Below, one piece after another: positions 117-55,852 of a stretch of DNA of 64,000 nucleotides. The first letter of the stretch is position 1; every line of letters begins with the position of its first letter. Made by a program: the position numbers and the translations under genes. The notes beneath the pieces are model-generated. The model was not told the DNA's origin. It worked only from the letters and a program-made list of their open reading frames with translations, and did not search any database. Source of the DNA: Apostichopus japonicus (Eukaryota > Echinodermata > Holothuroidea > Aspidochirotida > Stichopodidae); the NCBI RefSeq assembly GCF_037975245.1, contig NC_092569.1, positions 20,639,001-20,703,000 on the forward strand. Direction: 5' to 3'.

Positions 117-198
117 ATGAGTGCAATTCAGTTTTCGTGTATCTTTCATTGCTTCCTTATTGGTATTTGCATTTATTCTTCGATGGCGGGAAGTGTTG
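117..198 (+). CDS. Locus A exon 1: signal peptide
   Basis: The ATG at 117 opens 27 codons plus one base with a hydrophobic core (FSCIFHCFLIGICIY) followed by small residues (SSMAGS), a typical secretory signal. A gtaagt donor follows at 199 in phase 1. The frame opened at 121 by a GTG is rejected because it does not splice in phase with exon 2. Confidence 0.7.
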
Positions 199-3100
199 GT
201 AAGTAGAGTAACGGAAAGTAGATCTAACATTTCATCTCATTACTTAGACGTTGTGAATTTAAAGAAAAAGCATGAATCAGCAAACTCGGATCAGTTATTA
301 TACTTGTAGCAAATATTTGTTATGCAACTGCATCGATGGTGATCTTTAAACTAATGGTTCTTATGATTTCAGCATTTTTCAAGTGCACAAAACGACACTC
401 AATTAAAGATGCCGTTATGCCTTGTGGTGGTAACTGTAGCAATCAAATGGAGCTAATACCGAGAACCGGTAAGTAACAGTTGCTATTAAGGTAATCTAAG
501 AAGTTATAAATATAGAAAAGTAATACATGTATCAAAGTAAAATCTGATTTTTCTTTCACTGCAAAAAGAACAGTGATTTCATTTAAAGCTTTATTTACAT
601 ATTATATTCAAGCGTATATGTCATATGCATAATAGTAATTTGAATGAACTGTTTGGTGAATATATAGAGAACCCCGAAATAACTGAATCTTAGTTAAACG
701 CTTTGCTAATTCATGTTAAATTATAGTGATGATATATTTACAACCATCCTCTATAAATAAAACTATATTTGGCATTCAACCCTCTGAATACTGGCCCAAA
801 GGGAAAGGAAGAAAAATCACCAAGACATCAAATAAATCTGTTTTAGAAGGAAATGTATATATGCATATTTTCCACTTATTTTTTTTTATGACAGCAGATG
901 TTCAGTTATCTGTTTCTTTACCCAGACTCACTGATATAGAAGATAGAATACTAGATAGACGACTAGAAATTACTCACCAGTATTGTTGCGGGACGAACTT
1001 TTCTACAGCATGTTCATATAAAATATTGTAGTAGATGGAGGTCGGAGCAAATTAACTTTACTCTTCTTTTCTTTCGTTAATGAAAATTACTGAAATGTTC
1101 CAAGTGTTCACAATTATTTATATTCAAGTTAGGAAGAAATAATTTAACACTCGATTACAGATTCGACATCATCCAAGTCGACTTTTCAGTCCTCAACAAA
1201 ATCAATAACCACAACAGGTTGGAAGTTAGTTTTATAATACGCTGTGCAAATCATATATATCAAAAGCGGTGCTCTGTTATCAGAGCTATGTATTTCGGGC
1301 ATTTGTTGATGTTCTGCAGAATAGTTTCTATTGACTCTTCAATTTGACCAATGTTGAGTATTTTACAGCAATCTTAGTAATACATCATATCCAAGCTATC
1401 CAAGCTGATATATTCATCAGCTTCATTGGTAGAGTTTCCATTCAAAGAATGAAAGGGAAAAAAACATCAAATTTATTCTGAAAATATCCGATTTACTGTA
1501 AGCATGTAGCTAGACGACAGAAAATAAATTTAGAATCAGTCTTTATTCACGAGTAACTGGCTATATTAAGTTTTTTCCTTTTTGTTCAACTATTCGAAGA
1601 CCATTTTCTTAGTACTATGATTATTGTTAGATTGACCTATGCATTTGTATATAGGCCTTTAGCTTTGGTATCATGCTTCTGGAAAAATATCCTTTACCAT
1701 ACCAAGCTGTTTTAGTAGTTTTATAACATCAGCATAGTCTCTTCTCGCTTATTGTTTTAAACTTTTATTTTACCAAACTTTTGTTTTATATAATTTCTTC
1801 AACCGACTGTGGAAAAAGCTACTCAGAGGGGTTTGAACGGAAGGAATGTATACGTCCGTTTCCCCATCAGGACTCTCGAGTTACATCCTAACATTATAAA
1901 ATCATTCTTAAGGTTTACTCTCAATATTTTCTTGGTAAATAAATTCACCATTTATTTTAACGAAATGCTCTTTTCATATTCTTGACTGTTAGGACGAATG
2001 TCGACGGATAATTTCCTGCAATCCACGAGTTCACCGGTAACCACATCAATAACTACAGAAGGTATAGATATAAAACTCACTTTTTATATATTATTGTGTA
2101 AACAAACTTTATTTACTTCCGTTTAGTGTTGTAATATATTTTAACGCATGGTAATAAGTCAAACGAAATGCCCGCTATAAGTTCTCGTTGCAGGGTTGTA
2201 TATCAGGAGTATTGTATGGGAATACTAAATGTAAGTAATATATTTAGTTCAATTCTTCTAGGCAGAGTCACAGACATAAACTTGAGTTAATCTTTACGTC
2301 CTACATGAAATGTGTGAAGAATAATATGGACAACATTATTTGCTTTCATATATCGTTATGTTAACAAATGGTAATGAGTCAAACGAAATGCTCGAAATAA
2401 TTGTATTTGTTTTTAGGTGGCATATCATTATTGCATGTATCGAACACTGATTTTAACAAATTTATTAATTGTAATGACTATATTATTTTACAACTACAAT
2501 TGATGAATCCAAAAAACAAGTATAATACACCATATCACTCATAACATATACCGTGGGGAAAATATCGACACAACGTAAAGTAAGAACGCAACAAGCTGAT
2601 AAGTATTAAGAATATGTACTTTGCTATCGAAATATTCTTTCGAAAATTTCTCGGCAAACATCAGAGAACCCGTTTTTAAAAGAAAAATGTCATCTTGACT
2701 GTTCACTTCCCTTCAGAGTGATGTATTTCTCTGTGAGATAAAACCTTACTATTCATTGTGGGAATAATGAAAAATAACAGTTACGCATATTTTGAAAATC
2801 CCGCTTATCAAAATTATGAATGCATTCCTTGGATATCTAGCAAAGCAGGCGGTGGACATTAAATGTGCATGGTAGACTTACGTGGACATACGTCTCTCAG
2901 TCTAGTGAAGCTTCACAAGACTATGCGCATGTATTGAGATGGTAAATCGCATGAAATGTGAATCCCGGTTATTTCATTGCCTGGTCCGGATAGACTTTTG
3001 GGGGATACCTCGTATTTTATATTGAAATATTATGGTTGTTACCGATGGACTATATATATTGTAGGTAAAACCATCCAGGCAGTTGAATAAGTTTGAATAA

Positions 3101-5196
3101 AGTATCCCGCAGATGGAGAGTAAGTTTTAACCGATGACCGAGCTTATGTGAGGGCATGAGTGAAATAATATAGTTTATACTGATCTACTGTGTAGATGAG
3201 AAATTAAATTCAATGTCTATATGGTAAACACTCAAGAAAGGAAATGTTCACAGTTGGCTGGGATCGAAATTCACCGCGCCATTCAAGAGATACAATTCAA
3301 TTGGATGACAATGCCCCTAGATCAAGTTGTTTTATACTAAAGTCGGATCCGATTAGCATTAAAAGATATGGTGATTGTATTATCATATAGTATCACCTAA
3401 ACCTTTGGTGGCATTGTTATTTTATTTGTATATATGTTTTTTATGTAACTGAATATGGAAGTCCTTGTGATTCCATTTGCATATTTGTATATATGTAGTG
3501 TATGTATATGAAAGTGGAAGTCCTTGCAATTATAGTTGCATATTTGTATATATGTAGTGTATGTAAATGAAAGTGGAAGTCCTTGCTAATCTATTTGAGT
3601 AATTTGTATATATGTATTTTATACTAAATAAAAACGGAAGTCCTTGTTTTTCTATTTGTATATATGTATTGTGTGTAATTGAAAGCGGAAGTCCTTGCTA
3701 ATCTATTTGAGTAATTTGTATATATGTATTGTATGTAAATGAAAGTGGAAGCCTCTGTTTATCTTCTATCATTATTTCGTGTCTAAATGCGATTGCATAA
3801 TACAACTTATATGAAGAAGATTATGTTTTAGTCGAGTTTCTATAACTCGTACCTCATATAAATGATTATAGATGTTTCTGTTTGACAATTAACATGATAG
3901 TTTATTCTTCAATCAAATATGTTTGTTTTTAGAAGACAGTCAAAACAATGGTATGTTTGATGAGACTTCTCCAGAGGTTTCTTCTATGATGTCAAACACA
4001 GGTAGGTTACTCTTAAATTAAGTAAGATTGTTTTAAACTCAACTAAAGTCTATAATAAAGAGTTGTGCATTTATACTTCACAATTGGAAAGTTTGTAATA
4101 TATTTGTGTGTGAGTAAACACTTAAGTATACATTTCTTCCGAATGTTCGGGACAGGTATCTACTACGTAACGAAAAAAAAAATCAACTATCTGTTAAATG
4201 TATTTTCCTTCTAAAATATCGTACTGGAATTTAAAATGGTGTTAAGATGTAATTAATCTTCGAGAAATGATGCATAAAATCAATTCAGTCACGTATTAAT
4301 TACTTAAACAAAAAAAAAGGTTGTTTAAATTGATAGTATCATGCGACGCTTTGGTCACTTACATTGGAACATTGTCGTAATTTATTAACAGATGTAGTTT
4401 TGATAAACGTGTAAGGCTGTTGCAGTAATGCCGAGACAGTTTCTCAGTATATTATAACTCACTCATTCTTCTTTAAAAAAAAAAGAAGGAAATTTGTAGT
4501 TTCATCATAGAGCAATAACAAATTAACATGTTCATTGATTTCGACAATGTTTGCAGGAGTGTAGGAAATGCAATAGATTTGGCTACATTTACGTGTCAGC
4601 GTTTCACGGCGGTGCTGACAGTGACAAGTCAGTTATAAAACGTCTTTAAATCTTTGCATTATTATTAACGTAGATCAGAATACTATTATTCTGAATTTAA
4701 AACAAGATGGCAGAATCCAAATATTGACATTTTCTTAATATACAACATATGCAATGTGGTAATGGAATGAGATGAAAAGCAGAAAACTCTCATTTAAATA
4801 CATAACAAAACAAAATCAAAAATCTCTTTTAAGATGAACAAAAACTCAAACTTTTAATTTGAACGATTTGCAACATGTATTTGACCAACCGAATTGCCGC
4901 TTTGCAAACAAAAAACCTGAGTATTTGTTGTCTACAAGAGATAATACAACACGTCAATGGTGTGTATGAGAGGCACCTTCAATACATTGCTCCGTTGGGT
5001 ATCCGTATATAAGTCACTCTAATTTAATGGATTTTGTAGCAAAATCACTTAGTTCAGCCACAACAATTTTTTTCAGTAGTATTTTGATTAGCTTAACAGA
5101 AGAATCACAACTAATGTATACAATTTTGGACACCTAGATTTAGTCCTACAACATTTATGGACAAATGTAAGCTAGCCAAGCCCATACGAATGGACC

Positions 5197-5271
<75 letters not shown>

Positions 5272-8200
5272 ATCGGATAGAAGACTAAAACTTACCAGCA
5301 TTGTTGCGGGACGAACTACTCTACATAATTTTTATATAAAATATTGTAGTAGATGGATGTCGCAGCAAATTAACTTTTACTCCTTTTTTCTTTCGTTAAT
5401 GAAAATTACTGAAATGTTCCAAGTGTTCACAATTATTTATATTCAAGTAAGGAAGAAATAATTTTACACTTGATTACAGATTCGACATCATCCAAGTCGA
5501 CTTTTCAGTCCTCAACAAAATCAATAACCACAACAGGTTGGAAGTTAGTTTTATAATACGCTGTGCAAATCATATATATCAAAAGCGGTGCTCTGTTATC
5601 AGAGCTATGTATTTCGGGCATTTGTTGATGTTCTGCAGAATAGTTTCTATTGACTCTTCAATTTGATCAATGTTGAGTATTTTACAGCAATCTTAGTAAT
5701 ACATCATATCCAAGCTATTCTCAGTAGGATACAGCCGGTACTTTTATATAGCGTAAATAAATGAACAACTCACCATTTTTAAGCATATATTCTTGTTAAT
5801 CTTGTAACGTGAGGATATTGCTTAATAGTGCATCCGTTAGAAAAGATAATATTCATCAGCTATATTGGTAGAGTTTCCATTCAAAGAATGAAAGGGAAAA
5901 ATCAAATTCATTCTGAAAATATCCGATTTACTGTTATCATGTAGCTAGACGACAGACATTACATTTAGAATCAGTCTTTATTCACGAGTTACTGGCTATA
6001 TTAAGATTTTTTCTTTTTGTTCAACTATTCGAAGACCATTTTCCTAGTACTATGATTATTGTTAGATTGACCTATGTATTTGTATATAGGCCGTTAGCTT
6101 TGGTATCATATTTCTGGATAAAGATCATTTAATAAACCAAACTGTTTTAGTAGTTTTATAATATCGGCATTGTCTCTTCTCGCGCATTGTATTAAACTGT
6201 GAGTTTACCAAACTTTTGTTTTATATAATTTATTAAACCGACTGTGAAAAAAGCTAGTCAGAGGGGTTTAATCGGAAGGAATCTATACGTCCGTCTCCCC
6301 ATCAGGCCTCTCGAGTTACATCCTAACATTATAAAATCACACTTTACCATTTACTCTTAATATTCTCTTAATAAATAAATTCACCGTTTATTTTAACATA
6401 ATGCTCTTCTTTTATTCTTGACTGTTAGGACGAATGTCGACTGACAATTTTCTGCAATCCACGATTTCACCGGTAACCACAGCAATAACGACAGAAGGTA
6501 TTGCCAAAGCTGTACACATCTTACATTTCCTACATGTTTAACAATTAATCGACATAAACATTTTTTTGATTTCAGACTATTGTATAATTTCAGTATTGAA
6601 TGTTCTGCTTCGTTCTCCTCTGTTATGTATAACTCAAATTTATCAACTTTGCATAAGATACGTTTATAGAGCTATGAAAAAAATGTCTTGTACAATAAAG
6701 CACATACAATAGAAAAGTAAGTTTAATTGATAAGCATAAATGGACTGAATGTTGGTGAATATTTCCTTAAATTCAGAACTGCAGAAATTAACTCTATTGT
6801 CGCTAGTATATGGTTCCATTTTTGTAAGTTATAAGAAGTATCGTCGTGATAAATCTCGAGTTGGATATGCTGTTTGGTTGACGGAAGGGCCAAATTCTGT
6901 GTTTTACCTGAAGCTCATTTCTTATCCTCCTGTTTAAACTCAGGAGGTGAGACTTAAATCCATTTTCACCGTTACTACTAGTATACGGGTACCACATCGC
7001 ACTACCATTATATGTGAATGATCGAAGAAGTTGACACCGAAGGGAAACTTGCCTTAACATCCTGATGAAATATAACATATTCCATTTTCAGCGGCGACCA
7101 CTACGCCACCATGCCCTTTGAATCAAGTCCTTGCTGACTGTGTATGCCAGGGTACATGTGACGACCCTCATGGGTGGTTTGGCTGCCATATAAACTGTAC
7201 TGGAGGAAGAACATGCGTATGTCCTGCCGGCTTTTTATTATTCGGACAGAATTGCATACCGGAGAGTGCTTGTGGGTGTTATCACGAAACGAGAGGAGTC
7301 ATACCGGTATTCTTAAACTGTTATTAGTCTAGTCATCATGTGTGTTCCTTAACAATCGTATCCGCCAAAACCAGTCTGCTCTATCCCAACAAAGTATCAG
7401 TTGTAGAGTTTTACAAAACACAGATAAAAGGAAAGTTTCTCCACTGCCAATGTCACATATTTGAATTTCATTGACGGAGACAGTGGACATGTCTTTATAG
7501 TAGGTGATAATAAACAAATGACGTCACCTTTGCTATTTCTTTGTAATTGTCATGCAACTAGTAGCTTTTACTGTTCTGGTAAATGTACTGAACAGATTTA
7601 ATATTCCATAGTGATCAAGCTACGAATCTTATTAATTCACGAAGTAATCACTCTACAATGGACGACACAAAATACCTGTTGATCTTATGATAATTCATTC
7701 TCTCCTTCTGTTCTTAGATCATGAAGTTGAAATAAAAACATAAAAAAAAGAGATTTAATCAAGCAATATTATTAAAAAGTCATGGTGAGACCCTTTTCAT
7801 TCAATAATAAATCCAGCATATCATAAATTAAGCATATTGCTCCCCAGAGCAAATCAAACGTGAAGCCAAGAACTTTCCAAGTAATACTCCGTCCACGCCC
7901 GGCCTGACTTAATCGAACACCTGCTCATATGTCTGGATGGACTAAATAAAGGTCATATGAAAAACAATTCCTTAAAGTTGTCATTTTTTTCCTTGAGAAC
8001 AGACTAGAACACTATTCCAGAGATGTAATCTACGTAATATCATCAGGGTGGCAACACTACATTCATATTTATTCACTTTTTCTCTGTATTAAGAATGGCG
8101 GATCGTACGTGACCATGGACTGCACGGAAACATGCTCATGTGAGAATGACGTTCTTGTATGCATAAACTATACATGCAGTGAACATGCGACGTGCCAAAA

Positions 8201-9788
8201 CCATAATGGCAATATGTCGTGCGATTGCAACGTGAACTATATGGGAAATGGGACAGTATGTAAACGTGTACAGGATTGCCAAGATCTTTACGAAAATGGC
8301 GTAATCAGTGAAGGTTTTCACTTGATATACCCGCTTACATGGTCAGGGGAACCTTTTGAAGCTTACTGCAAAGACGGATGGACTGTAAGAGGACTTTCTT
8401 TTGAGTTTATGTCCATGATAGTTGTCGTTTTATGTACGAGAAATAAGATGTACCATACTACACATTGTACTTCTATACCCCGCCCCTGAAATTTACTACG
8501 CGGGACTACGTAACCTACCTACTTCAACGTTAAAGAACAGAGTGTTGAAGAACAAGTTTTATTTTGTGCTTTTGTTCTAAACATAATATCAACGGACTGC
8601 TACTATATATTTCGAAGGCAGAAAATGCTTTGACAATATGGCTGGGCTGCAAATATCCACTTGAAGGGGAGAGTGTCTTTTCCTGTTAATATATAGACCA
8701 TTCATATAATCCATACACTGTCAAAACATCACAGAGGTACTTGTCTTGACTAATCTGGCTTCAAGTGGACCGTGAATACTTCCTTAATGAGCCTCAACTA
8801 ACTAGCATACTGATATAAACCTATTTTTGTTTTGCTGTTATTGTTTAGTTTTTTCAGCTCCGCGTCGATAACAAGGGTTTTTACGATAACTGGGATGGTT
8901 ACAGATCTGGCTTATATAGACGCGGAACTAATTCACATTGGATTGGAAACGACCGATTAGCCAACATAACTGCTCAACGGAACTACAAAATGAGAATGGA
9001 ATTTAAAAAACGGAGTAATAACATTACCCACTATCTTCAGTATGATCTCTTTCGAATTGGTTCAGAAGTCAACAACTATGCACTAGAAGAGCTCGGCAGT
9101 TATACAGGCAGCTTGGGTGAGTAAAACATTTTTATCGTAGCCTATAATTCAATGCACAGAATATGCCATGAACGAAATTTGTAAGCCTACATGACAAAGT
9201 GTGGAACCTGGTTTGTTGTGGTTACTGATCGACTGGGACTTTCGATATTTAAGGAGCTTTAGCATCATTTAATAAAAAAAACGTCAATTTTATCAAAATT
9301 TCTCAAAATCTTCATCGTCATCATTGTCGCCATCGTTATCATCGTCATCTTCGTTTTCGTCTCCGTGTTCTATTGACATTTTCATCTTCATTGTCATTCC
9401 CATCATCATAATAGACGATGATGAGAGTTATTTTAGTTTCGATTTTTCTTGAGAAAAAAAAGTAAATTTAGAAGAAAGATGGGTTTTTTTGCTGGTTACG
9501 TTTTCCTTCTCATTGTACACAGAATATGACTACATGGGATATCATCGCGGTAGTGAGTTTTCAACACATGACTCTGACAACGATAACGATACATCACGAA
9601 ATTGCGCGAATCATCATCTCGGTGGCTGGTGGTACAATGGGTATAATGATGAATTGACATGTACTACAGCGAATTTCAATGGAAATTTTGGCTATGGCTG
9701 GGATCATGGAGTGTGCATTTACGACAGGGAACGAATGATTTCTGACTGCGATATTGATACAACTGAAATGAAAATCAAACCTGTCTGA
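117..9788 (+). CDS. Locus A: secreted TIL-EGF-fibrinogen C-terminal domain protein, complete 11-exon model
   Basis: Exons: 117-198, 373-468, 1161-1217, 1993-2061, 3933-4001, 5480-5536, 6429-6497, 7092-7306, 8094-8384, 8849-9116, 9523-9788. They sum to 1539 nt, 513 codons including the stop, with no internal stop and consistent phases (phase 1 up to the TIL exon, then 0, 0, 1). Domain order: signal peptide, short Cys exon, five Thr/Ser linkers, TIL domain, TIL-associated Cys module, EGF-like domain, fibrinogen C-terminal domain. No membrane segment follows the signal peptide, so a secreted protein is expected. In other animals such proteins act as pattern-recognition lectins or matrix factors; that role is inferred here. 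The last seven exons have near-identical counterparts in locus B. The gene is convergent with pseudogene C. Extra exons or alternative splicing of linkers cannot be excluded. Confidence 0.82.
373..468 (+). CDS. Locus A exon 2: short Cys-containing N-terminal exon
   Basis: Acceptor ttatgatttcag and donor ggtaagt bound 96 nt, phase 1 to phase 1. The peptide contains FKCT, PCGGNC and NQMEL, giving three cysteines. A related exon (FKCT, PCPGVC, EQI) lies on the minus strand at 57760-57836, so this is a recurring family exon. I do not recognise the fold; half of a TIL-like or other small Cys-rich module is possible. Confidence 0.6.
1161..1217 (+). CDS. Locus A exon 3: Thr/Ser linker (type 1, 57 nt)
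   Basis: Phase 1-1 exon of 19 codons, reading D-S-T-S-S-K-S-T-F-Q-S-S-T-K-S-I-T-T-T-G across the junctions. Thr/Ser-rich and Cys-free, it probably encodes an O-glycosylated stalk. Near-identical copies lie at 5480-5536 in the same gene and 30763-30819 in locus B. Confidence 0.65.
1993..2061 (+). CDS. Locus A exon 4: Thr/Ser linker (type 2, 69 nt)
   Basis: Phase 1-1 exon of 23 codons, starting G-R-M-S-T-D-N-F and ending S-I-T-T-E-G. Acceptor ctgttag, donor ggtata. Copies lie at 6429-6497 and 31738-31806. It forms a two-exon cassette with the 57-nt linker upstream. Confidence 0.65.
3428..3760 (+). repeat. Imperfect tandem repeat, about 50-60 bp unit, six copies
   Basis: The unit contains 'tttgtatatatgta' and 'ggaagtccttg', repeated from 3428 to 3760 in the intron before the acidic linker exon. 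Locus B keeps only about two units (28970-29060). Confidence 0.7.
3933..4001 (+). CDS. Locus A exon 5: acidic Ser/Met linker (69 nt)
   Basis: Phase 1-1 exon reading E-D-S-Q-N-N-G-M-F-D-E then TSPEVSSMMSNTG. Acceptor tttgtttttag, donor ggtaggt. Its locus B counterpart at 29262-29330 keeps length and phase with few substitutions, which supports real coding. Confidence 0.65.
5203..5268 (+). repeat. (TA)n microsatellite
   Basis: About 33 TA dinucleotides at the edge of the second linker cassette. The locus B equivalent (about 30595) has no expansion. Confidence 0.95.
5480..5536 (+). CDS. Locus A exon 6: Thr/Ser linker, second copy of type 1
   Basis: Essentially the same 57-nt exon as 1161-1217, embedded in about 1.1 kb of matching intron. 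It is the first half of an internally duplicated cassette. Confidence 0.62.
6429..6497 (+). CDS. Locus A exon 7: Thr/Ser linker, second copy of type 2
   Basis: 69-nt phase 1-1 exon (G-R-M-S-T-D-N-F to A-I-T-T-E-G), closing the second cassette. It joins the TIL exon as G|CG (Ala). Confidence 0.62.
7092..7306 (+). CDS. Locus A exon 8: TIL (trypsin inhibitor-like Cys-rich) domain
   Basis: 215 nt, phase 1 in and phase 0 out. After a short ATTTP lead comes a TIL cysteine pattern: CPLNQVLADC, then CQGTC, FGCHINC, TCVCPAGF, NCIPESACGC, and YHETRGVIP. TIL domains occur in secreted protease inhibitors and VWD-type mucins such as FCGBP and zonadhesin. The CGCY tail leads into the next exon exactly as in TIL-E modules of those proteins. 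Confidence 0.85.
8094..8384 (+). CDS. Locus A exon 9: TIL-associated Cys module, EGF-like domain and start of the fibrinogen domain
   Basis: 97 codons, phase 0-0. MDCTETCSCENDVLVC continues the TIL module. CSEHATCQNHNGNMSCDC and NYMGNGTVC form an EGF-like repeat. RVQDCQDLYENGVISEGFHL to AYCKDGWT is the opening of the fibrinogen C-terminal domain with its first Cys pair. Three domains meeting in one exon, with the same length in B, D and F, marks this as the family signature exon. Confidence 0.88.
8849..9116 (+). CDS. Locus A exon 10: fibrinogen C-terminal domain, central part
   Basis: 268 nt, phase 0 in and phase 1 out. It starts FFQLRVDNKGFYDNW, matching the fibrinogen-domain strand after 'GGWT'. 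It continues with HWIGNDRLANITAQ (equivalent of the usual FWLGN block) and HYLQYDLFRIGSEVNNY, and ends LGSYTGSL. Acceptor ttgtttag, donor ggtgag. The usual GEFWLGN is changed to NSHWIGN. Confidence 0.87.
9307..9425 (+). repeat. Degenerate TCATCG-type simple repeat in the last intron of locus A
   Basis: Interrupted tcatcg/tcgtca repeats just upstream of the last exon. It is preserved in locus B at about 34570-34680. Confidence 0.6.
9523..9788 (+). CDS. Locus A exon 11: fibrinogen C-terminal domain, calcium site and C terminus
   Basis: 88 codons including TGA. EYDYMGYHRGSEFSTHD leads to the D-S-D-N-D-N-D calcium loop, then RNCA, GGWWYN, ANFNG, GVCIYDRE, SDC and TEMKIKP. The normal second Cys pair is present, but the partner Cys sits in an insertion (YNDELTC). 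An extra C...C pair replaces the usual 'GIxWxxW' motif. A polyadenylation-type AATAAA lies at 9966-9971. Confidence 0.88.
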
Positions 9789-9965
9789 ATATACGTCCAT
9801 CAATACGTGTGATATGTTGATTGAGGCAATTCTTCGTTGCAAAAGGTGACAAATAGGTCACGAAACATTAAAACCAACCAGCATTAAAAGTCCCTGCCCG
9901 AATCTATAAATCAGTTATTAAGCAAAATACTTTTTCAGGACTTTGCAAGTCAAAATGAATGTAGT

Positions 9966-9971
9966 AATAAA
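9966..9971 (+). terminator. Candidate polyadenylation signal of locus A
   Basis: AATAAA 178 bases past the stop codon. The same hexamer is kept at the equivalent place in locus B (35225-35230). Confidence 0.4.
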
Positions 9972-9989
9972 TGTGACAAAAACATGATA

Positions 9990-14090: not shown

Positions 14091-14311
14091 CTAAAAGCAA
14101 ATCAAGAGGAAATGTACAAAAACAAAAATCCGACTTACATAATTTTATATTTCAAAGTCGTGTCTACAGTTTTGATAGCATAGAAGAAAATACGTAGAGA
14201 ATGCATGGAATAAAATAAAACAAATCGATGCCAAATGTAGGACTATTCGGAAATGTGAAAAAACATAAATATAGGCTGCTTTGAAATTAGACATAAAGGA
14301 AAGTGCTTTAC

Positions 14312-27267: not shown

Positions 27268-27349
27268 ATGGCAAACTTTCCCAATCGGAATCTTGCAATA
27301 ACTGCTGTCTTACTTTATGCTAATATCATCCACATTTCGCTTGCTATGG
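27268..27349 (+). CDS. Locus B exon 1: signal peptide
   Basis: ATG at 27268, then 27 codons plus one base, exactly 82 nt like locus A exon 1. The core LAITAVLLYANIIHISLAM is a good secretory signal. Donor ggtaggt in phase 1. Not alignable with A at nucleotide level. A TATA-like 'tctataag' lies about 35 bases upstream. Confidence 0.6.
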
Positions 27350-30300
27350 GTAGGTTTGATTATTTTTATTTTCTTTTATATATTTGGTTTATAATGTAAA
27401 ATGCGTATCAACTAAGATGTTCCATTAACTTAAAGCTAACTTGTCTGCTCATATTACTTGTACTTATTTACTATGATTTTTAAGTTTTTCTTTCTCAAAC
27501 AACTTTCTGATGAAAGTTGTAAGACATAAGTACACTTGCAGATAAATACACTCAATTGAATATTGCGTTGCTTGTTATCTGGAATTACATCTCGCCCAAT
27601 ATGTTGCTGCCAGCGAGCACGGGCTACTGGCCTAACCACAGTGATAATGACAGCTAATATATCTGATATAAAATTATTCTAGACCAACCTTACGATGTAC
27701 TGTTGTGATTGAAATGTAACGAGCTTCTCTGACAACTGATTCACACAGAGATTAAAGTAATTACTTTAAATTTTCAAGTTTTTTACCATTTTTTTTTTTA
27801 CCAAAATGCATCAAACTGGATTTGTCGGGATTAAACATATCCATAGTACTTACTGTAATCCTAATAGCACATGCTACCGATTTATAGCACCATCCGGTTT
27901 TCACTGTGGTACAAAATTTGGAGATTTATAGTAGATACTGTGTTCTCTGTATCTATGGGTGTCTCTGGGGTATTAGGCAGTTTTGGTGATGAGAGGTGAT
28001 AAAGATTAGTGTATAGATAGTCGTTGTTTTCATTTTTTTTATTCTCTTATTTCGTGCCTTTGTTCTTTAAAACAAACAGGCATATGCGAGTTCGAGAACT
28101 ACATGAAAGGTCTCTCCCATCGGAATCCCCAATTAAGTGGTAACTTTATTTTATTTTGTACACATTCTTAGCTGCTATTTATTCAAATTGGTTTAGCTGG
28201 GTTTTTGGTATGAGACTTATCTGTTATCCGTTATTTTTCTTGATAAATACGTTATGAAGCAAAAACAACAAAATTGTCAAATGTAACTTGTGTATAAGAA
28301 ATCATTGTGATAGACAACTCAGACAACAATCTAACGAAAATCCTCTTCCGTGTGAGAGATACTGTTGTTCAAAAGTTACAATAGGATATTGTCATTTTTT
28401 CATTTGTGATGTCATTGCTCTTCTAATTTTCCTTTTTTTCAAGGTGTCAATGTAAAGTGTGACATCACATCTTGACAATGAAACCAATTACCTCGTGAAC
28501 TCTTATTAATAACTTCAATGTTTTAAATTCCATATTTTTTCATAACCTATCCATATTACATGGATAAAAATGTTAATAAACTACCAGTAAAGAAAGGATA
28601 TAGTTTGACAGTTCAAACCATAGGTAGATGATACATATCTATAGACTTGTCCCAGTCGTGTTTGTAAAAGAAACATTTAAACTCTGATAGCTCCCAAGCG
28701 AGATGCGAGCTAGTTGGAAAAGTTGTTTCTCATTAATATTTCTGTCAGTATAAATGATGATTGTTGTATTTTCTTCTCTTTGTGTTATGAAAAATATGTA
28801 AACAAGAATAATACAATTATATAAATGTTTTAATCTAAGTAATAACACAAACTCTTAACTATTTGAATAATAACAGCGGCTATCTGTACCCGTTCCACAT
28901 CAGAGAACCCGTTTTCCAAAAAAAAAAATTCAACTTGACTTTTCACTTCCCTTCAAAGTGATGTATTTCTAAGTCCTTGTTAATCTATTTGAGTAATTTG
29001 TATACATGTTTTGTATACTAAATGAAAACGGAAGTCCTTGCAATTCTATTTGAGTAAATTTTATGTAAATGAAATTGGAGTCTTTGTTTATCCTCTATCA
29101 CTATTTCGTGTCTAAACGCGATTGCATAATACAACATGTATTACGAAGATGATTTTTGAGTCAAATTTCTATAACTCGTACCTTATATAAATGGTTATAT
29201 ATGTTTTTGTTTGAAAATTAACATTATAGTTTATTCTTCAATCAAATATGTTTGTTTTTAGAAGACGGTCAAAACAACGGTATGTTTGATGATACTTCTC
29301 CAGAGGTTTCTTCTATGATGTCAAACATAGGTAGGTTCCTCTTTAATTAAATTAAGTAAGAGTGTTTTAAACTCAACTAAAGTCTATTATAAAGATTTGT
29401 GCGTTTATACTTTACAAAAGGAAAGTTTGTAATATCTTTTTGTGTGAGTAAAAACTTAAGTATACATATCTTCCGAATGTTCTGGACAGGTATCTGCTAC
29501 GTAACGAACAAAAAATCAACTATCTGTTAAATTTATTCTCCTTCTAATATATTGTACTGGAATTTGCAGGTATAGTAATTTCTAATAAAAAATGGTGCTA
29601 AGCTGTAATTAATCTAAGAGAAATGAGAAATGATAATCAATTCAGTCACATATTAATTACATAAAGAAAAAAATGTGTTTAAATTGATAGTATCATCTGA
29701 CGCTTTGGTCACTTACATTGGAACATTGACGTAATTTATTAACAGATGTTAGTTGTGATAAACGTGAAATGCAGTTGCAGTAGTGCTGAGACAGTTTCTC
29801 AATAAATTATATAAAAAAAGGAAATTTGTAGTTTCATCATAGAGCAATAACAAATTAACATTTTGATTGATTTTGACAATGTTTATGATGACTACCGTGC
29901 TTATGATGACGACCGTGTTTAAACTTGTCTACATCATACAAGTATTGATTGATTTGATTATTGCAGGAGTGTATGAAATGCAATAGATTTGGTTACATTT
30001 ACGTGTCAGCGTTTCAGGGCGGTGCTGGCAGTGACAAGTCAGCTATGAAACGTATATAACACTATGCATTATTCTTAATGTCGATCAGAATCCTATTATT
30101 CTGAATTTAAAACAAGATGGCAGAAGCCAAATATTGACATTTTCTTAATTCACAACAAAATGGAATGCTATGAAAGCAGAAAACTCTCATTTGAATACAT
30201 TACAAAACAAAATCAAAAATTTATTTTAAGATGAACAAAAAGTCAAACATTTAATGTGACCGATTTGCAACATATATTTCACAAACCGAAATGCCGCTTT

Positions 30301-33300
30301 GCAAACAAACAATCTCATTATTTGTTGTCTACAAGAGATAATACAAAGTGTCAATAGTGTGTATGAGAGGCAATTATAAAGCGTTGTTCCGTTTGGGTAT
30401 CCGTATATAAGTCACTCTAATTTAATAGATTTTGTAGCAAAATCACTTAGTTCAGATACACAACAATTTTTCAGTAGTATTTTGGTGAGCTTAACAGAAG
30501 AATCAGAACGAATGTATACAATTTTGGACACCTAGATTTAGTCCTACAACATTTATGGACAAATATAAGCTAGCCAAGCCCATACGAATGGACCTATAAA
30601 GGAATCGGATAGAAAACTAAAAATTACTCACCAGCATTGCTGCGGGACGAGCTATTCTACATTATGTTCATATAAAACATTGTAGTAGATGGAGGTCGGA
30701 GCAAATGAACTTTTCCTTTCGTTACTGAAAATTACTATTGATAATTTTACACTCGATTACAGATTCGACATCACCCAAGTCGACTTTACAGTCCTCAACG
30801 AAATCAATAACCACAACAGGTTGGTATTTAGTTTTATAATACGCTGTGCAAATCACATAAATCAAAAGCGGTGATGTGTTATCAGAGCTATGTATTTTTG
30901 GGATTTTATGTTGTTCTGTTCCTGACAATCGTTACAGAACAGTTTGTTTTGACTCTTCAATTTGAGCATTGTTTAGTATTTTAAAGCAATCTGAGTAATA
31001 CATTGATCCAAGCTATTCCTATAATAGGATACAGACGTTACTTTATATAGCGTAAATAAATTAACATTTTACAATTTGTATAGCATATATTTGTGTTAAT
31101 TTTGTAACATGCTGATACTACTTGAAAGTGCATCCGTTAGAAATGCTATATTTATCAGCTTCATTGGTAGAGTTTCTATTCAAAGAATGAAAGGAAAAAG
31201 TTCAAATTCATTCTGAAATATCCGATTTACTGTTAGCATGTAGCTAGACGACAGACATTACATTTAGAATCAGTCTTTATTCACAAGTTACTGGCTTTAC
31301 TAAGAATTTTCCTTTTTGTTAAACTATTCGAAGACCATTTTCTTAGTACTATGATTATAGTTAGATTGACCTATGTATTGGTATATAGGGCTTTAGCTTT
31401 GGTATCATGTTTCTGGAAAAAGGTCATTTAATATACCAAACTGTTTTTATTAGTTTTATAATATCGGCATTGTCTCTTCTCGCCATTGTATTAAACTGTT
31501 ATTTTACCAAACTCTTGTTTTATATAAATTCTTTAACCGACTGTGGAAAATTCTAGTCAGAGGGATTTAATCGGAAGGAATGTATACGTCCGTTTCCGCA
31601 TCAGGACTCTCAAGTTACATCCTAACAATATAAAATCATACCTTACCATTTACTCTTAAAGCCTTTTAATATTTTCTTGGTAAATAAATTCACCGTTTAT
31701 TTTAACATAATGCTCTCTTTATATTCTTGACTGTTAGGACGAATGTCGACAGCCAATTTTCTGCATTCCACGAGTTCACCGGTAACCACAGCAATACCGA
31801 CAGAAGGTATGGCCAAAGCTGCACACATCTTACATTTCCTACATGGATAAAAATTAATCGACATACAAATTTATTTCATTTCACACTATTGTATATTTCT
31901 GTATTCATTGTTCTGCTTCGTTCTCCTCAGTTATGTATGACTAAAATTAATCAACTTTGCATAACATACGTTTACAGAGCTATACAAAAATGTCTTGTAC
32001 AATAGAGCACATACAATAGAAAAGTTAGTTTAATTGATAAGCATAAATGGACTGAATTTTGGTGAATATTACCTTACATTCAGAACTGCAGAAATTAATT
32101 CTATTGTCGTTAGTATATGGCACCACTTTTTTTGAGTAATAAGAAGTATCGTCGTGATAAATCTCTAGTTGGATATGATGTGCGGTTGACGGAAGGGCCA
32201 AATTCTGTGTTTTATTTTCAGCTCATTTCTTATCCTCCTGTATAAACTCAGGAGGTGAGACTTAAATCCATTTTCACCGTTACTACTAGTATACGTGTAC
32301 AACATAACACTACCACAATATGTGAATGATCGAAGCAGTTGACACCAAAGGGAAACTTGCCTTAACATCCTGATGACATATGACATATGACATATTCCAT
32401 TTTCAGTGGCGACCACTACGCCACCATGCCCTTTGAATCAAGTCTTTGCTGACTGTGTATGCCAAGGTACATGTGAAGACCCTCATGGGTGGTTTGGCTG
32501 CCATATAAACTGTACTGGAGGAAGAACATGCGTTTGTCCAGCTGGCTTTTTACTACTCGGACAGAATTGCATACCGGAGAGTGCTTGTGGGTGTTATCAC
32601 GACACGGGTGGAGTTATACCGGTATTCTTAAACTGTTATTAGTATATTTTTCATGTGCGTACCTTAACAATCGTATCCGCCAAAACCAGTCTGCTCTATC
32701 CCAACAAAGTATCAGTTGTAGAGTTTTACAAAACACAGATAAAAGGAAAGTTTCTTCAGTTGCCAATGTCACATATTTGAAATTCATTGACGGCTACAGT
32801 GGACGACACAAAATACCTGTTGATCTTATGATGATTCATTTTCTGCTTCTGTTCTTAGATCTTGAAGTTGAATTAAAAAACATAAAAAGTAGGTTTAGTC
32901 AAGCGATATTATTAATGGCTGTTTATGTGCAATAAAAACAAACCATAGTGAGACCCTTCTTATTCAATAATCAATCCAAGTTTGACGAAAGTGTGTGCAA
33001 GGGAGACTATGCGATGACGGGATCATTTTAGCGTACTGTTTTGTGGAACACACCTCCAATAAAAAAAATAAAAAAACTATAACAAGCATATTGCTCCCCA
33101 GAGCCAATCAAAAGTGAAGCGAAGAAATTTCCAAGTAGTACTCCGTCCACGCCCGGCCTGACTTAATCGAACACCTGTGCCCTCAAATATGTATGGACGG
33201 ACTAAATAAAGGTCATATGAATACAATTCCTTAAAGTTGTATTTTTTTCCTTGAGAACAGACTAGAACACTATTCCAGAGATGTAATATACGTAATATCA

Positions 33301-35051
33301 TCAGAGTGGCAACACTATATTCATATTTATTCACTTTTTCTCTGTATTAAGAATGGCGGATCGTACGTGACCATGGACTGCACGGAAACATGCTCATGTG
33401 AGAATGACGTTCTTGTGTGCATAAACTATACATGCAGTGAACATGCGACGTGCCAGAACCACGATGGCAATATGTCGTGCGATTGCAACGTGAACTATAT
33501 GGGAAACGGGACAGTATGTAAACGTGTACAGGATTGCCAAGATCTTTACGACAATGGCGTAATCAGTGAAGGTTTTCACTTGATATATCCGCTTACATGG
33601 CCAGGGGAACCCTTTGAAGCTTATTGCAAAGACGGATGGACTGTAAGAAGTCTTTCTTTTGAGTTTATGTCCATGATAGTTGTCGTTTTATGTACGAGAA
33701 ATAACATGTACCATACTACACATTGTACTTCTATACTCCGCTCCTGAAATTTACTACGCAGGACTACGTAACCTACCTACTTCAACGTTAAAGAACAGAG
33801 TGTTGAAGAACAAGTATTATTTTCTGATTTTGTGCTAAACATAATATAAACGAAGTGAAACTATATATTTCAAAGGAGCAGAAAAAACGTTGATAATATG
33901 GCTGGGCTGCAAATATCCACTTAGAAATGTGAGGGGATAGTGTCTTTTTCTGTTAATATATAGACCATTCATATATTCCATAAAAAACATCACAGAAGTA
34001 CTTTTCTTGACTAATCTGGCTTCAAGTGGACCGTGAATATTTCCTTAATGAGCCTCAACTAACTAGCATACTGATATAAACCTATTTTTGTTTTGCTGTT
34101 ATTGTTTAGTTCTTTCAGCTCCGCGTCGATAACAAGGGTTTTTACGATAACTGGGATCGTTACAGATCTGGCTTATTTAGACGCGGAACTAATTCACATT
34201 GGCTTGGAAACGACCGATTAGCCAACTTAACTGCTCAACGGAACTACACAATGAGAATGGAATTTAAAAAACGGAGTAATAACATTACCCACTATCTTCA
34301 GTATGATCTCTTTCGAATTGGTTCAGAAGTCAACAACTATGCACTAGAAGAGCTCGGCAGTTATACAGGCAGCTTGGGTGGGTAAAACATTTTTATCGTA
34401 GCCTATAATGCAATGCACAGTTTATGCCATGAACGATATTTGTAAACCTATATGATACAGTGTGGAACCTGGTTTATTGTGGTAACTGATCGACTGGCAC
34501 TTTCGATTTTTAAGGAGCATTAGCATCATTTATAAAAAAACGTAAATTTTCTCAAAATTTCTCAAAATCTTCATCGTCATCATTGTCCCCATCGTTATCA
34601 TCGTCATCTTCGTTTTCGTCTTCGTGTTCAATTGACATTTTCATCGTCATTGTCATCCCCATCGTCACAGTAGACGATGATGAGAGTTATTTTAGTTCCG
34701 ATTTTTCTTGAGAAAAAAAGTAAATTTAGAAGAAAGATGTTTTTTTTTTTGCTGGTTTCCTTTTCCTTCTCATTGTACACAGAATATGACTACATGGGAT
34801 ATCATCGTGGTAGTGAGTTTTCAACATATGACTCTGACAACGATAACAATACATCACGAGATTGCGTGGGTGATCATCATCTCGGTGGCTGGTGGTACAA
34901 TGGGTATAATGATGATTTAACATGTACTACAGCGAATTTCAATGGAAATTATGGCTATGGCTGGGATCATGGAGTGTGCATTTACGACAGGGAACGAAGG
35001 ATTTCTGACTGCGATATTGCTACAACTGAAATGAAAATCAAACCTCTCTAA
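27268..35051 (+). CDS. Locus B: secreted TIL-EGF-fibrinogen domain protein, 9-exon model
   Basis: Exons: 27268-27349, 28080-28139, 29262-29330, 30763-30819, 31738-31806, 32407-32621, 33352-33642, 34110-34377, 34783-35051. They total 1380 nt, 459 residues, with all phases compatible and no stop. The last seven exons are close copies of locus A; the first two are not. B has three linker exons against five in A. Differences from A include the calcium loop D-S-D-N-D-N-N, an extra residue before GGWW, and a C terminus of MKIKPL. Exon 2 is the least certain, and omitting it also leaves the frame open. Same inferred role as locus A. Confidence 0.8.
28080..28139 (+). CDS. Locus B exon 2: short N-terminal exon (tentative)
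   Basis: Bounded by aaacaaacag and ggtaact, 60 nt, phase 1-1, reading G-I-C-E-F-E-N-Y-M-K-G-L-S-H-R-N-P-Q-L-S. It holds the position of the Cys exon of A but has only one Cys, so the assignment rests on splice sites and frame alone. Confidence 0.4.
29262..29330 (+). CDS. Locus B exon 3: acidic Ser/Met linker
   Basis: 69 nt, phase 1-1, E-D-G-Q-N-N-G-M-F-D-D then TSPEVSSMMSNIG. Counterpart of 3933-4001; the few differences are substitutions that keep the frame. Confidence 0.65.
30763..30819 (+). CDS. Locus B exon 4: Thr/Ser linker type 1
   Basis: 57 nt, phase 1-1, D-S-T-S-P-K-S-T-L-Q-S-S-T-K-S-I-T-T-T-G. The single B copy of the exon that is duplicated in A. Confidence 0.65.
31738..31806 (+). 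CDS. Locus B exon 5: Thr/Ser linker type 2
   Basis: 69 nt, phase 1-1, G-R-M-S-T-A-N-F-L-H to A-I-P-T-E-G, followed by ggtatg. Matches 1993-2061 and 6429-6497. Confidence 0.65.
32407..32621 (+). CDS. Locus B exon 6: TIL domain
   Basis: 215 nt as in A. CPLNQVFADCVCQGTCEDPH, FGCHINC, TCVCPAGFLL, NCIPESACGCYHDTGGVIP. All TIL cysteines are kept; most differences from A are conservative. Confidence 0.86.
33352..33642 (+). CDS. Locus B exon 7: TIL-associated Cys module, EGF-like domain, fibrinogen start
   Basis: 97 codons, phase 0-0, almost identical to 8094-8384 (N-to-D changes at QNHDGN and LYDNG, S-to-P at TWPGEP). EGF Cys pattern and the fibrinogen opening RVQDCQDLY to AYCKDGWT are intact. Confidence 0.88.
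34110..34377 (+). CDS. Locus B exon 8: fibrinogen domain, central part
   Basis: 268 nt, FFQLRVDNKGFYDNWDRYRS, HWLGNDRLANLTAQ, HYLQYDLFRIGSEVNNY, GSYTGSL. It has WLGN where A has WIGN, closer to the family consensus. Confidence 0.87.
34783..35051 (+). CDS. Locus B exon 9: fibrinogen domain C terminus
   Basis: EYDYMGYHRGSEFSTYD, calcium loop D-S-D-N-D-N-N, RDCVGDHHLGGWWYN, GVCIYDRERRISDC, TEMKIKPL and TAA at 35049-35051. One codon longer than in A (GDHH against NHH). Confidence 0.88.
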
Positions 35052-42939: not shown

Positions 42940-42990
<51 letters not shown>

Positions 42991-43242: not shown

Positions 43243-43249
43243 CTGCAAG

Positions 43250-44991: not shown

Positions 44992-45048
44992 ATGCAACGT
45001 CTAGTACACCTACTGTTAAAACTCATGAGACGACTGATCGTCCTACAG
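44992..45048 (+). CDS. Locus E Thr-rich linker exon 1 (57 nt)
   Basis: Phase 1-1, D-A-T-S-S-T-P-T-V-K-T-H-E-T-T-D-R-P-T-G; acceptor ttcttcaacag, donor ggtaaat. Same length and D-x-T-S start as the type 1 linkers of A and B. Confidence 0.55.
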
Positions 45049-46254: not shown

Positions 46255-46510
46255 TTTCTTCACCTTTCAGACAAACCGTCAAATTCAACCACAGTGCAGG
46301 ATAATTACCAAACAGGTGATCATACAACATGTTAATATACGCCAGTATTTATTACTTGCTTTCCTCTTTTCAGTTCTGACCAAAGTTTACGCAATCCGAC
46401 TAACATGTAAGATAGGTGACTTTTATAAGGAGCATTACTCAATTCGACGTATATACGTGTAAGGAAGCAAACGATGGGTGAATATCACTTCATACAAATA
46501 ATGAACAATA
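46255..46510 (+). repeat. Tandem duplication with linker exon, copy 2
   Basis: Contains the 45-nt phase 1-1 exon 46271-46315 (D-K-P-S-N-S-T-T-V-Q-D-N-Y-Q-T-G) after cacctttcag, with donor ggtgat. Two further degenerate look-alikes sit between the copies near 45917 and 46132. Confidence 0.7.
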
Positions 46511-52688: not shown

Positions 52689-52745
52689 ATTCAACGTCAA
52701 ATCCAACAACTATAGAAACTGGTAGAACAACTGAACAGACTACAG
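52689..52745 (+). CDS. Locus E Thr-rich linker exon (57 nt), right of the transposon
   Basis: Phase 1-1, D-S-T-S-N-P-T-T-I-E-T-G-R-T-T-E-Q-T-T-G; acceptor tttctaacag, donor ggtaaa. A clean cassette with the D-S-T-S start. Confidence 0.6.
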
Positions 52746-53250: not shown

Positions 53251-53465
53251 TTCCGAAAACTCCAATTTCGAGTCCATTAAATACTGAATGGTCAAACTGC
53301 AATTGCCAGACAACCTGTGATGATCCTACCGAAGTATACGGTTGCTACAGCAGCTGTGGCTCTGGAGAGACACGTCTTTGTCCAGGTGGTTTCTTTTTAA
53401 GTGGGGAAGACTGTGTAACTGATAGCCAATGTGGATGTTATCATGCCATAGCTGGAGTGATTCCT
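53251..53465 (+). CDS. Locus E TIL exon (intact)
   Basis: 215 nt, phase 1-0. NTEWSNCNCQTTCDDPTEVY, GCYSSCGSGE, RLCPGGFFL, DCVTDSQCGCYHAIAGVIP. It lacks the first TIL Cys (SPLN instead of CPLN) but keeps the rest. It lies upstream of broken exons, so it is part of a pseudogene. Confidence 0.8.
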
Positions 53466-53825
53466 GTAAGTCTTACATGCTCTTTTAGACAATGAAACTT
53501 GATATTTTATTAATTAGGTGCTCTGCTACAATAAACAAATTAATTACTTGAAACAATACAGTGTATTTTGTTTTTTAGAAGGAATGACGCTCTCCAAATC
53601 CATGTACACGAACGTTTTGTCACACGAGGCAGGTACATGTATGCGACTGAATACGCAATTATTGGCAATGCTGATTAGAAAGAAATAAATTATCGATCGA
53701 TATATAACATTAGTGGGCAATTTTAATTAAGATTGTAAAGAAAGGAGACTTCCCATATCGTAGTAACATTTTGAAATTTAAATTTAATTTATATGTAATA
53801 TATGTATTTTAGATCCTCCTGCAAG

Positions 53826-54040
53826 TAAGAACTCGCAAGAAAAAAAAAGCCTCATTGGCTTATCAAAGCCGCAGGCTGACCGAAGTCAGTCTCTTTGATT
53901 CATATTTAACGTCCATGATTATGAATTGTCAATTGTCAATAACTCTGTAACTGGACGACATAAATTAATCTTGGAGTGACTCGAACTCGGGACCTTATGA
54001 TTGGAAGGCACCGGCGTTAACCACTGAGCTAAAACTCCTA
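53826..54040 (-). mobile_element. tRNA-derived SINE in the locus E intron
   Basis: Minus strand: A-box tagctcagtgg (54021-54031) and B-box gagttcgagtc (53978-53988) with tRNA spacing, and a TTCC anticodon-loop-like stretch suggesting a tRNA-Gly-type origin. A body and an A/T-rich tail at about 53837-53850 follow. No convincing target-site duplication read by eye. Confidence 0.7.
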
Positions 54041-54099
54041 GTAGGCTTATTTTAACACTATATCAATTCGTTTTTTTTTTTGGGGGTTGTTGTTGATAG

Positions 54100-54390
54100 A
54101 ATGGAGAGTCGTACCTTGACACAACATGTTCGAATATTTGTTCATGTGAAGATAACGTGTTAGTTGCAATGGCTACTTTTGTAGTGCTACTGCAACGTGT
54201 CGAACTGAAGGCAATGAAAGCAAACGAATGTGTAATGATGGCTTTATGGGAGATGGTGCAACGTGTGAGCGGGTGAAGACTTTTTTGGGATGTTTACAAC
54301 AATGTTTCAACTGACGAGAGCCTTCAACATATCTATCCCTCTGCATGGCCACTGTCTTCTTTTGAAGTATATTGTAAAGACGGCTGGACG
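54100..54390 (+). pseudogene. Locus E EGF/fibrinogen-start exon with two compensating indels
   Basis: Length is still 291 nt, but a one-base loss after DNVLV and a one-base gain in the T run near 54285 put the EGF part out of frame with a TGA. Outside that stretch it reads NGESYLDTTCSNICSCEDNV and WDVYNNVSTDESL to VYCKDGWT. Confidence 0.85.
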
Positions 54391-55034
54391 GTAAATTTTG
54401 TGAAGTATATAACGATGATATACATATTTAACCAAAAGATGTCTGGAAGGTATCTGGCAATATTGAGCACACATTTTTGCTTTAATACAAAATTCATGAT
54501 TCCATATAAAACTCTCAGACCCAATTATTAAAAAGTTCAATCATGTATAAATCAGTTGCTCTCCTTACTTTTTGTGCTAAATAAATATTACTGAACACCA
54601 ATAAATGCCTCATTAACATTCGGAACAGAAAAAAAAAAACATGCTGATTCCGTGGGGTTTTTTCCGTTTATATAAAAACATTTTTAAATGTTGTAAAATA
54701 TACAATTTTGCAACTAAGTACCGTTAATCATAGAACATGTTTTGTATAAAGGGTGAGTGGAGTCCTCCTCACCATTGGACCTCAAGAACAACATCTTCCG
54801 GAGGATTGTCAAAATCTTCAAGTCAAAAGCCAATAAGTTTGAATACCAGGGATTCAAATCAATAAGGTTGATTTCGAGTGAGAACTCTGAGCACATACCT
54901 GTTTTAATTTTAATTACATCAAATCTACACCGACGTTTCATGAGTGTCTAACACAAACCAGTTGAATGACACACAGATATATGTCTTGTTATGCTTTTGT
55001 TTTCATATTTTACTTGAAAACTTATACAAAAGAG

Positions 55035-55265
55035 TATGGAAGGCTCCATTGACTTTAATAGTCACTAGGATAGCTACAAACACGGTTTTGGTAATCTGAA
55101 CGGAGAATTCTGGCTTGGAAACGAAAAGATACACACCATTACTACAAAACAGAATTACAAAATTAAAATAGATTTTACAATTACTGCAGTGTGATTTATT
55201 TCGGATCAGCACACAGGCTGACAACTATAAACTCATAGACCTTGGTGACCAAACTGAAAGCTTTG
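55035..55265 (+). pseudogene. Locus E fibrinogen central exon, broken
   Basis: EGSIDFN, S-H, TAG, D-S-Y-K-H-G-F-G, GEFWLGNEKIHTITTKQNYK, then frame loss and a TGA, then CDLFRISTQADNYKLIDL in another frame. The stop replaces the conserved Trp. Confidence 0.85.
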
Positions 55266-55723
55266 GTAAGTACCGTTTATTCTCCTTGAAGAATACATGT
55301 TTTGTTTTTTAAATAACTCGGTTCCAAATTTTTACGTTAAGTAATACGATGTTTTTATACCTGTCCCCCACCACACATCTCCGTCTACACCAAATAGAAT
55401 GAATCAATTGTATTAAGTTTCTCAATATTTGAAAGTGAGTTTACCTTAATACTTAAATTTTAATTTCCCGTACGGTCACTGGTCGCAATTTTAAAGCTGT
55501 TTTCTTTACTTTTTAAGTAGAAGAAAGAACCGTTGACCAGTTATTCAATGTTCTGATGTAAACCATAGTGTACAAGCAATTTTTTGACCACTAGTGTTGT
55601 CTTTCAAATATTCATTGTATTTCAAGGCATATCTTTGTATATACCATTCATTTTTATATGTTTTGGATACTGTTGACTTCTAAACCCTCGAATGATACTA
55701 AAAACTATCTCCTTCTTCCATAG

Positions 55724-55852
55724 ATGATTTCAATGTTATGGACTATCATCGTGACAAAACCCTTACCACCTACGATAGGGACATTAATGCGTCATCTTCT
55801 AACTGTGCGGTGAGACACACGAGTGCACAACGCCTGCTACAGCAGCAACTTT
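55724..55852 (+). pseudogene. Locus E last fibrinogen exon, broken
   Basis: Phase-1 start D-D-F-N-V-M-D-Y-H-R-D-K-T-L-T-T-Y, then D-R-D-I-N and NCAVRHTSA. The frame shifts where WW is expected and reaches TAA. The ACYSSNFNGDG segment is readable in another frame. The region past NFNGDG is not recognisable. Confidence 0.8.

Follow-up and report, generated by a model that had tools for sequence, protein, structure and literature searches.

Locus A, a predicted gene at positions 117-9788 of the plus strand of a 64-kb stretch of the Apostichopus japonicus genome (contig NC_092569.1; hereafter the window, whose coordinates are used throughout), carries between its signal peptide and its TIL domain a series of short exons that can be removed without breaking the reading frame. 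We consider it probable, at roughly 0.68, that this gene encodes a secreted lectin-like protein belonging to a local cluster, with a mucin-like spacer made of linkers, and that the length of this stalk has been changed in the germline by duplication, loss and conversion of exon blocks. Sequence comparison yielded the exon phases, the frame-neutrality of the linkers, two copies of a linker block in A, five predicted linkers in A against three in its paralogue (locus B), mini-exons at a further locus (E) and a conversion-like stretch.

In the mechanism that we propose, the fibrinogen head of A would bind glycans or another extracellular ligand, the TIL/TILa/EGF part would serve as a scaffold, and the Ser/Thr-rich linkers would form the mucin-like spacer of a protein predicted to be secreted and O-glycosylated. 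Stalk length would be set over evolutionary time by events in the germline, and not by regulated splicing. Since the linkers are class 1-1 mini-exons, duplication, loss or conversion of a unit of intron, exon and intron would leave the head as it is.

Phase-1 mini-exons of locus A

When spliced, locus A gave 11 exons, ten introns all of the GT-AG type and an open frame of 512 residues. Its first seven junctions, from the signal peptide to the TIL domain, were in phase 1 and the following ones in phases 0, 0 and 1, the TIL exon being asymmetric (1-0). The linkers measured 57, 69, 69, 57 and 69 nt in this order. We thus recovered, at the same coordinates, the phase-1 run and the 57- and 69-nt linkers described in a preliminary description of this DNA. 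The exons were as follows (from the gene model, unless another basis is given).

117..198, plus strand: exon 1, 82 nt, ending in phase 1, predicted to encode the signal peptide (hydrophobic N-terminus in the translation)
373..468, plus strand: exon 2, 96 nt, phase 1-1, a module with three cysteines
1161..1217, plus strand: linker exon 57a, phase 1-1
1993..2061, plus strand: linker exon 69a, phase 1-1
3933..4001, plus strand: linker exon 69u, a distinct 69-nt linker with 32% Ser/Thr, phase 1-1 (locus B counterpart at 29262-29330)
5480..5536, plus strand: linker exon 57b, identical to 57a (gene model and alignment)
6429..6497, plus strand: linker exon 69b, differing from 69a at 6 of 69 nt (gene model and alignment)
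7092..7306, plus strand: exon 8, TIL domain, phase 1-0 (gene model and Pfam)
8094..8384, plus strand: exon 9, phase 0-0, encoding TILa, EGF and the beginning of the fibrinogen domain (gene model and Pfam)
8849..9116, plus strand: exon 10, fibrinogen domain, phase 0-1 (gene model and Pfam)
9523..9788, plus strand: exon 11, end of the fibrinogen domain and stop (gene model and Pfam)

An acceptor for exon 10 located nine bases further in, which would give a protein of 509 aa, was rejected because the upstream acceptor, giving 512 aa, fits the usual fibrinogen sequence.

All four Pfam matches of the locus A protein exceeded their curated cut-offs: TIL (residues 174-227), TILa (228-281), EGF_3 (263-294; EGF-like, PF12947) and Fibrinogen_C (298-511; PF00147, E 2.2e-33). 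The TIL, EGF and fibrinogen domains had been anticipated, TILa being the one missing from the title of the preliminary description. No Ig family was found by Pfam in the A or B proteins at E up to 1. A tblastn search with the head of A recovered seven related loci in the window (A to G), among which A and B had open frames. Locus A is most likely a member with an open frame in a local cluster of TIL-TILa-EGF-fibrinogen-domain proteins, predicted to be secreted.

The linkers proved removable, as had been claimed: every subset of exon 2 and the linkers stayed in frame, both in A (64/64) and in B (16/16), because all phase-1 exons have G as their last base and no stop codon begins with G. The 64 subsets of A correspond to 24 distinct protein lengths, from 373 to 512 aa. 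Among the head exons 8-10, two of the seven possible ways of skipping were open (exon 9 alone, or all three together). Each linker encodes 19 or 23 residues, and the five of A add up to 321 of 1539 coding nt (21%). Ser and Thr made up 49% of the 108 residues of the A stalk, in agreement with the Thr/Ser richness first noticed, and 39% of the 66 residues of the B stalk. The high Ser+Thr content of the former would fit an O-glycosylated repeat region, although it is suggestive only.

The duplicated linker block and locus B

The preliminary description held that linkers could be duplicated, and a block formed by a 57-nt exon, an intron and a 69-nt exon is indeed present twice in A. This block and locus B comprise the following features.

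954..2065, plus strand: copy 1 of the duplicated block (57a, intron and 69a; blastn)
5276..6501, plus strand: copy 2 of the duplicated block (57b, intron and 69b; blastn), collinear with locus B
5203..5268, plus strand: (TA)n microsatellite immediately preceding copy 2, missing at the equivalent site of B
1057..1387, plus strand: stretch of 331 nt spanning exon 57a, in which one A copy was probably converted by the other (bounds chosen post hoc)
27268..35051, plus strand: locus B, a paralogue with 9 exons, 459 aa, three linkers and different predicted 5' exons
27268-27349 and 28080-28139, plus strand: predicted 5' exons of locus B
29262-29330, 30763-30819 and 31738-31806, plus strand: linkers of locus B

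Within A, blastn aligned 954-1399 with 5276-5718 (94.9% identity) and 1410-2065 with 5849-6501 (89.8%). The identity of copy 1 stopped four bases into the intron following exon 69a, and 69u and other intron sequence lie between the two copies. Locus B has a single block. The collinearity between A and B, which extends from about A 2658 to 10100 (blastn), covers 69u and one block in both loci. The extra block of A is located upstream of A 2658, where this collinearity begins, so that a gain, a loss and a truncated copy are all possible.

We compared the two A copies (A1 and A2) with B. Of the 139 informative sites, 24 consecutive ones united A1 and A2 against B, a run matched by none of 20000 permutations. 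The two copies differed at 6 of 331 positions within 1057-1387 and at 82 of 767 outside (p 4.5e-8). Gene conversion between the A copies thus probably took place around exon 57a; the 24-site run could be partly due to change in B. The high identity between A1 and A2 was not accepted as a sign of a simple recent duplication in A, since it is concentrated in the converted stretch.

Two other kinds of repetition were observed around the linkers. A minisatellite, whose unit measures about 59 nt, occupies 3423-3764, just upstream of 69u, and is partly present in B near 28971-29092. In addition, a profile of the 57-nt linkers gave weak matches (E 1-9) in all three 69-nt linkers (1993-2061, 6429-6497 and 31738-31806). 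The 57- and 69-nt types may have arisen long ago by copying one from the other.

The recognition head had been supposed to stay constant while the stalk changes. This view was not supported by the comparison of A and B: we counted 15 nonsynonymous and 4 synonymous changes in the fibrinogen exons 10-11 (8849-9788 vs 34110-35051) against 9.5 nonsynonymous and 13.5 synonymous changes in the TIL exon and exon 9 (Fisher p 0.029, with 9.5/13.5 rounded to 10/13 and small counts). The constant part is thus the scaffold and not the fibrinogen head. The synonymous divergence of exon 10 was low (0.019), which may reflect conversion. Both A (9523-9788) and B (34783-35051) have a six-residue insertion after WWY in a fibrinogen loop, missing from loci C, D and G and from angiopoietin-1 in the alignments shown, and this insertion may alter the ligand site. 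Angiopoietin, ficolin, tenascin and tachylectin-5A are among the fibrinogen relatives whose structures have been solved. A single scan of the fibrinogen head against viral contigs gave no match.

The front ends of the two genes were different. A and B differ in their predicted signal-peptide exons and in exon 2, with phase-1 joins in both, and their 5' exons could have been swapped at phase-1 introns. The collinearity starts abruptly, at A 2658 and B 28897, and upstream of 2658 the sequence of A, the block aside, had no blastn match elsewhere in the window. In the window, the peptide of A exon 2 had its best non-self match at 57831-57763 of the minus strand, a weak one (E 0.075) located upstream of the broken locus F; the stretch there (57836-57760) shares the FKCT...PC..C pattern and runs into a stop when its reading is continued as far as the next GTAAGT. 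We take this match only as a hint.

Locus E and the competing explanations

Linker-like exons were also present upstream of the head of locus E.

44992..45048, plus strand: linker-like 57-nt exon, phase 1-1, about 8 kb upstream of the E head
46271..46315, plus strand: linker-like 45-nt exon, phase 1-1, upstream of E
52689..52745, plus strand: linker-like 57-nt exon of E, phase 1-1
53274..55827, plus strand: head of locus E, broken, with the frame disturbed in its EGF part (tblastn)

The two 57-nt exons of E (44992 and 52689) were 72% identical over 67 nt, splice sites included. They resemble the 57-nt exons of A and B in length and phase, in beginning with D[SA]TS and in Ser/Thr richness. Upstream of E, we observed a duplicated linker unit (664-nt spacing, 86% identity over 221 nt, one copy with an in-frame stop) and two degraded copies of the 45-nt exon, one at 45606 with an in-frame stop and one at 47011 without a GT donor. 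The six next-best matches of an E-only profile, all weak (E 0.2-1), were at 45603, 45907, 46124, 46268, 47007 and 47215. This pattern is consistent with a decayed array, in which linker-exon relics in varied states of decay would occupy 45603-47261 of the plus strand. In a tblastn search with the A protein, the E exons were not among the matches at E up to 0.001. A profile of all five 57-nt exons was dropped, being circular as evidence that the A/B linkers share an origin with those of E.

Several observations weigh against a stalk modified by block duplication, loss and conversion. The E exons were not recovered by a profile restricted to the 57-nt exons of A and B, so that they are at most putative homologues of the A/B linkers. 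Among the top candidates listed, no Ser/Thr linker was present upstream of loci C, D and F, and the upstream side of G is outside the window. Locus B may be a copy that started further inside the gene, and the 5' exons of both A and B are unaided predictions. Beyond the converted stretch, the informative sites were divided between A1=A2 (34), A1=B (33) and A2=B (43). The linkers of A and B differed by 9 nonsynonymous and 3 synonymous changes, corresponding to a dN/dS (ratio of nonsynonymous to synonymous rates) of 0.96 on 12 changes. The excess of conservation of linker exons over introns was not significant in four comparisons (Fisher p 0.22, 0.07, 0.54 and 0.40) and was thus rejected as a proof of the linkers; for the head it was significant (p 0.0009). 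Finally, because of the six-residue loop insertion, ligand binding cannot be assumed.

The dN/dS close to 1 and the unremarkable exon conservation, together with the degraded copies upstream of E, would be expected if the linkers were evolutionary debris, that is to say ordinary phase-1 exons duplicated and lost neutrally, whose effect on stalk length is not under selection. We consider this explanation rather unlikely. The linker exons were free of gaps in the four comparisons, whereas the introns aligned with them had 87-211 gap columns, and Ser/Thr-rich phase-1 exons are also found at locus E. The linker changes between A1 and A2 (2 nonsynonymous to 4 synonymous) point in the same direction, although these numbers are tiny and partly come from the converted stretch.

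The preliminary description saw in the linkers an active mechanism of diversification. Under such a mechanism, many stalk lengths would come from one gene in a single animal through alternative splicing of its mini-exons, whether regulated or stochastic. The 64 open subsets with their 24 lengths would suit this explanation, and so would the donors of the 57- and 69-nt exons of A, which scored lower (4.1-4.9) than those of 69u and exon 2 (11.2-11.5). The schistosome micro-exon genes (MEGs) do this with small symmetrical exons, according to the available text of PMC4350168. However, phase by itself suffices to make the exons frame-neutral, extracellular modules as a rule have phase 1-1, and the different linkers of A and B are explained by germline change. 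A run of phase-1 junctions is what one expects of a signal peptide followed by extracellular modules (PMC8001218, available portion), and the claim of active diversification was not supported. Alternative splicing of the A linkers is permitted, and we regard it as improbable that it serves as a diversification system.

Splice-like open symmetric pairs are common in the AT-rich introns of A, and the locus A model therefore needed outside support. In these introns, with the exons themselves counted, open symmetric candidates numbered 139 in phase 0, 135 in phase 1 and 222 in phase 2, and 150 open symmetric phase-1 candidates were present in the region before the TIL exon. With such candidates abundant in all three phases, splice-site scores were rejected as a proof of exons. 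We scanned the window for non-overlapping symmetric mini-exons 36-120 nt long in which Ser/Thr reached 38% or more, a cut-off chosen post hoc with the exons already known. The plus strand contained 8 such candidates in phase 1 against 0 in phase 0 and 2 in phase 2, and 40 order-2 Markov simulations of this strand gave on average 1.08 phase-1 candidates, with a maximum of 5. These 8 candidates form about three groups, made up of three 57-nt and of three 69-nt exons of A and B and of two E exons, and several of them are mutual copies. On the minus strand, the same criteria gave 0, 2 and 2 candidates in phases 0, 1 and 2, and both phase-1 candidates belong to TILa exons (loci C and D). In locus B, all three linker counterparts retain phase, length and GT-AG splice sites. 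It might be supposed, from the 150 candidates and from the independent profile that does not link the E exons to those of A, that the mini-exons were wrongly predicted and that the mature protein has a shorter stalk or none. This is very doubtful in view of these three counterparts, of the exons of like kind, length and phase at locus E, and of the excess of phase-1 candidates over simulation.

A further open phase 1-1 candidate of 33 nt was observed between the last linker and the TIL exon, at 6914-6946 in A and 32222-32254 in B, with a strong donor (10.8) in both loci. The A copy is also open in phase 2. It is possible that this candidate is a further micro-exon.

The gene cluster and known systems

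The remaining loci of the cluster are on the minus strand.

13851-15860, minus strand: locus C, with stops in the TILa/EGF exon
39972-43246, minus strand: locus D, whose last exon ends early (read by eye)
about 57.0-56.2 kb, minus strand: locus F, with stops
about 64.0-63.1 kb, minus strand: locus G, with only two fibrinogen pieces inside the window

In locus D, the TIL match exceeded its Pfam cut-off whereas the TILa and EGF_3 matches were below theirs. The first fibrinogen exon was 94% identical between A and B, 89% between C and D, and 34-39% between pairs, C and D forming a second close pair in the cluster.

Tandem clusters of fibrinogen-domain genes are already known in this species: the FREP genes of A. 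japonicus are expanded and clustered, with 21 on one scaffold (PMC5638244; this and the other sources below are cited for the portions of their text that were available), and the loci of the window resemble them in this respect. The comparison with snail FREPs, made in the preliminary description, is not supported as kinship. FREPs have one or two N-terminal IgSF domains and a C-terminal fibrinogen domain, and the snail class with EGF-like and FBG domains is named FReM (PMC7588048). Locus A is not a FREP, since no IgSF domain was found in it. It has in common with both the fibrinogen domain and with FReM also the EGF-like domain, this pairing of EGF-like and fibrinogen domains in one protein being of the FReM type, although FReM is a snail gene name. 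In contrast to A, which has both, a TIL-TILa pair and a Ser/Thr stalk of mini-exons are not described for FREP or FReM in the available portion of PMC7588048. No TIL, EGF and fibrinogen protein and no mini-exon lectin stalk appeared in literature titles and the starts of abstracts, among the matches listed, mostly from non-subscription sources. The novelty would be in the combination of a mini-exon stalk with a TIL-TILa-EGF-fibrinogen head, phase-1 modularity and mini-exon blocks being already known.

A phase-1 junction after the signal peptide, followed by class 1-1 modules, is the rule in metazoan modular proteins (PMC8001218, PMC7259759). Locus A resembles the class 1-1 exon shuffling described by Patthy in its signal peptide, phase-1 intron and symmetric duplicable exons (PMC8001218): exons 2-7 are all predicted to be phase 1-1 and the block of 57 and 69 nt is present twice. 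Unlike these systems, A repeats Ser/Thr linkers and not folded domains, and its TIL and fibrinogen exons are not of class 1-1. The MEGs of schistosomes also have small symmetrical exons, with in-frame skipping and variants produced by alternative splicing (PMC4350168), but most of their coding sequence is in such exons, compared to the 21% contributed by the linkers of A.

A mini-exon block that has been duplicated and probably converted in a lectin-like gene can here be read from DNA alone, and the pair formed by A and B, with open frames and five versus three predicted linkers, offers a natural test of the effect of stalk length. If linker number does not vary between individuals, locus A would be a tidy example of the phase-1 rule; if it does, it would be the counterpart, in a recognition protein, of the mucin system of schistosomes. 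By analogy, the closest mechanistic precedent for the A stalk is provided by these mucins, the SmPoMuc of Schistosoma mansoni, with repeated genomic blocks of about 1 kb that each comprise a mini-exon and its flanking introns, dinucleotide microsatellites between them, S/T/P repeats and predicted O-glycosylation (PMC2576457). The mini-exon blocks of A are of similar size (about 1.1-1.2 kb), with (TA)n beside one of them. This likeness concerns the architecture only and we do not claim a relation in sequence. It would be a long shot to see in locus A a full germline counterpart of these mucins, in which microsatellite-flanked blocks are copied, lost and converted, individuals vary in stalk and glycans, splicing adds further variants and the head is under selection. 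In SmPoMuc, a 27-nt exon is present in up to about 20 copies, whereas in locus A exons of 57 and 69 nt occur together twice and are joined to a fibrinogen head.

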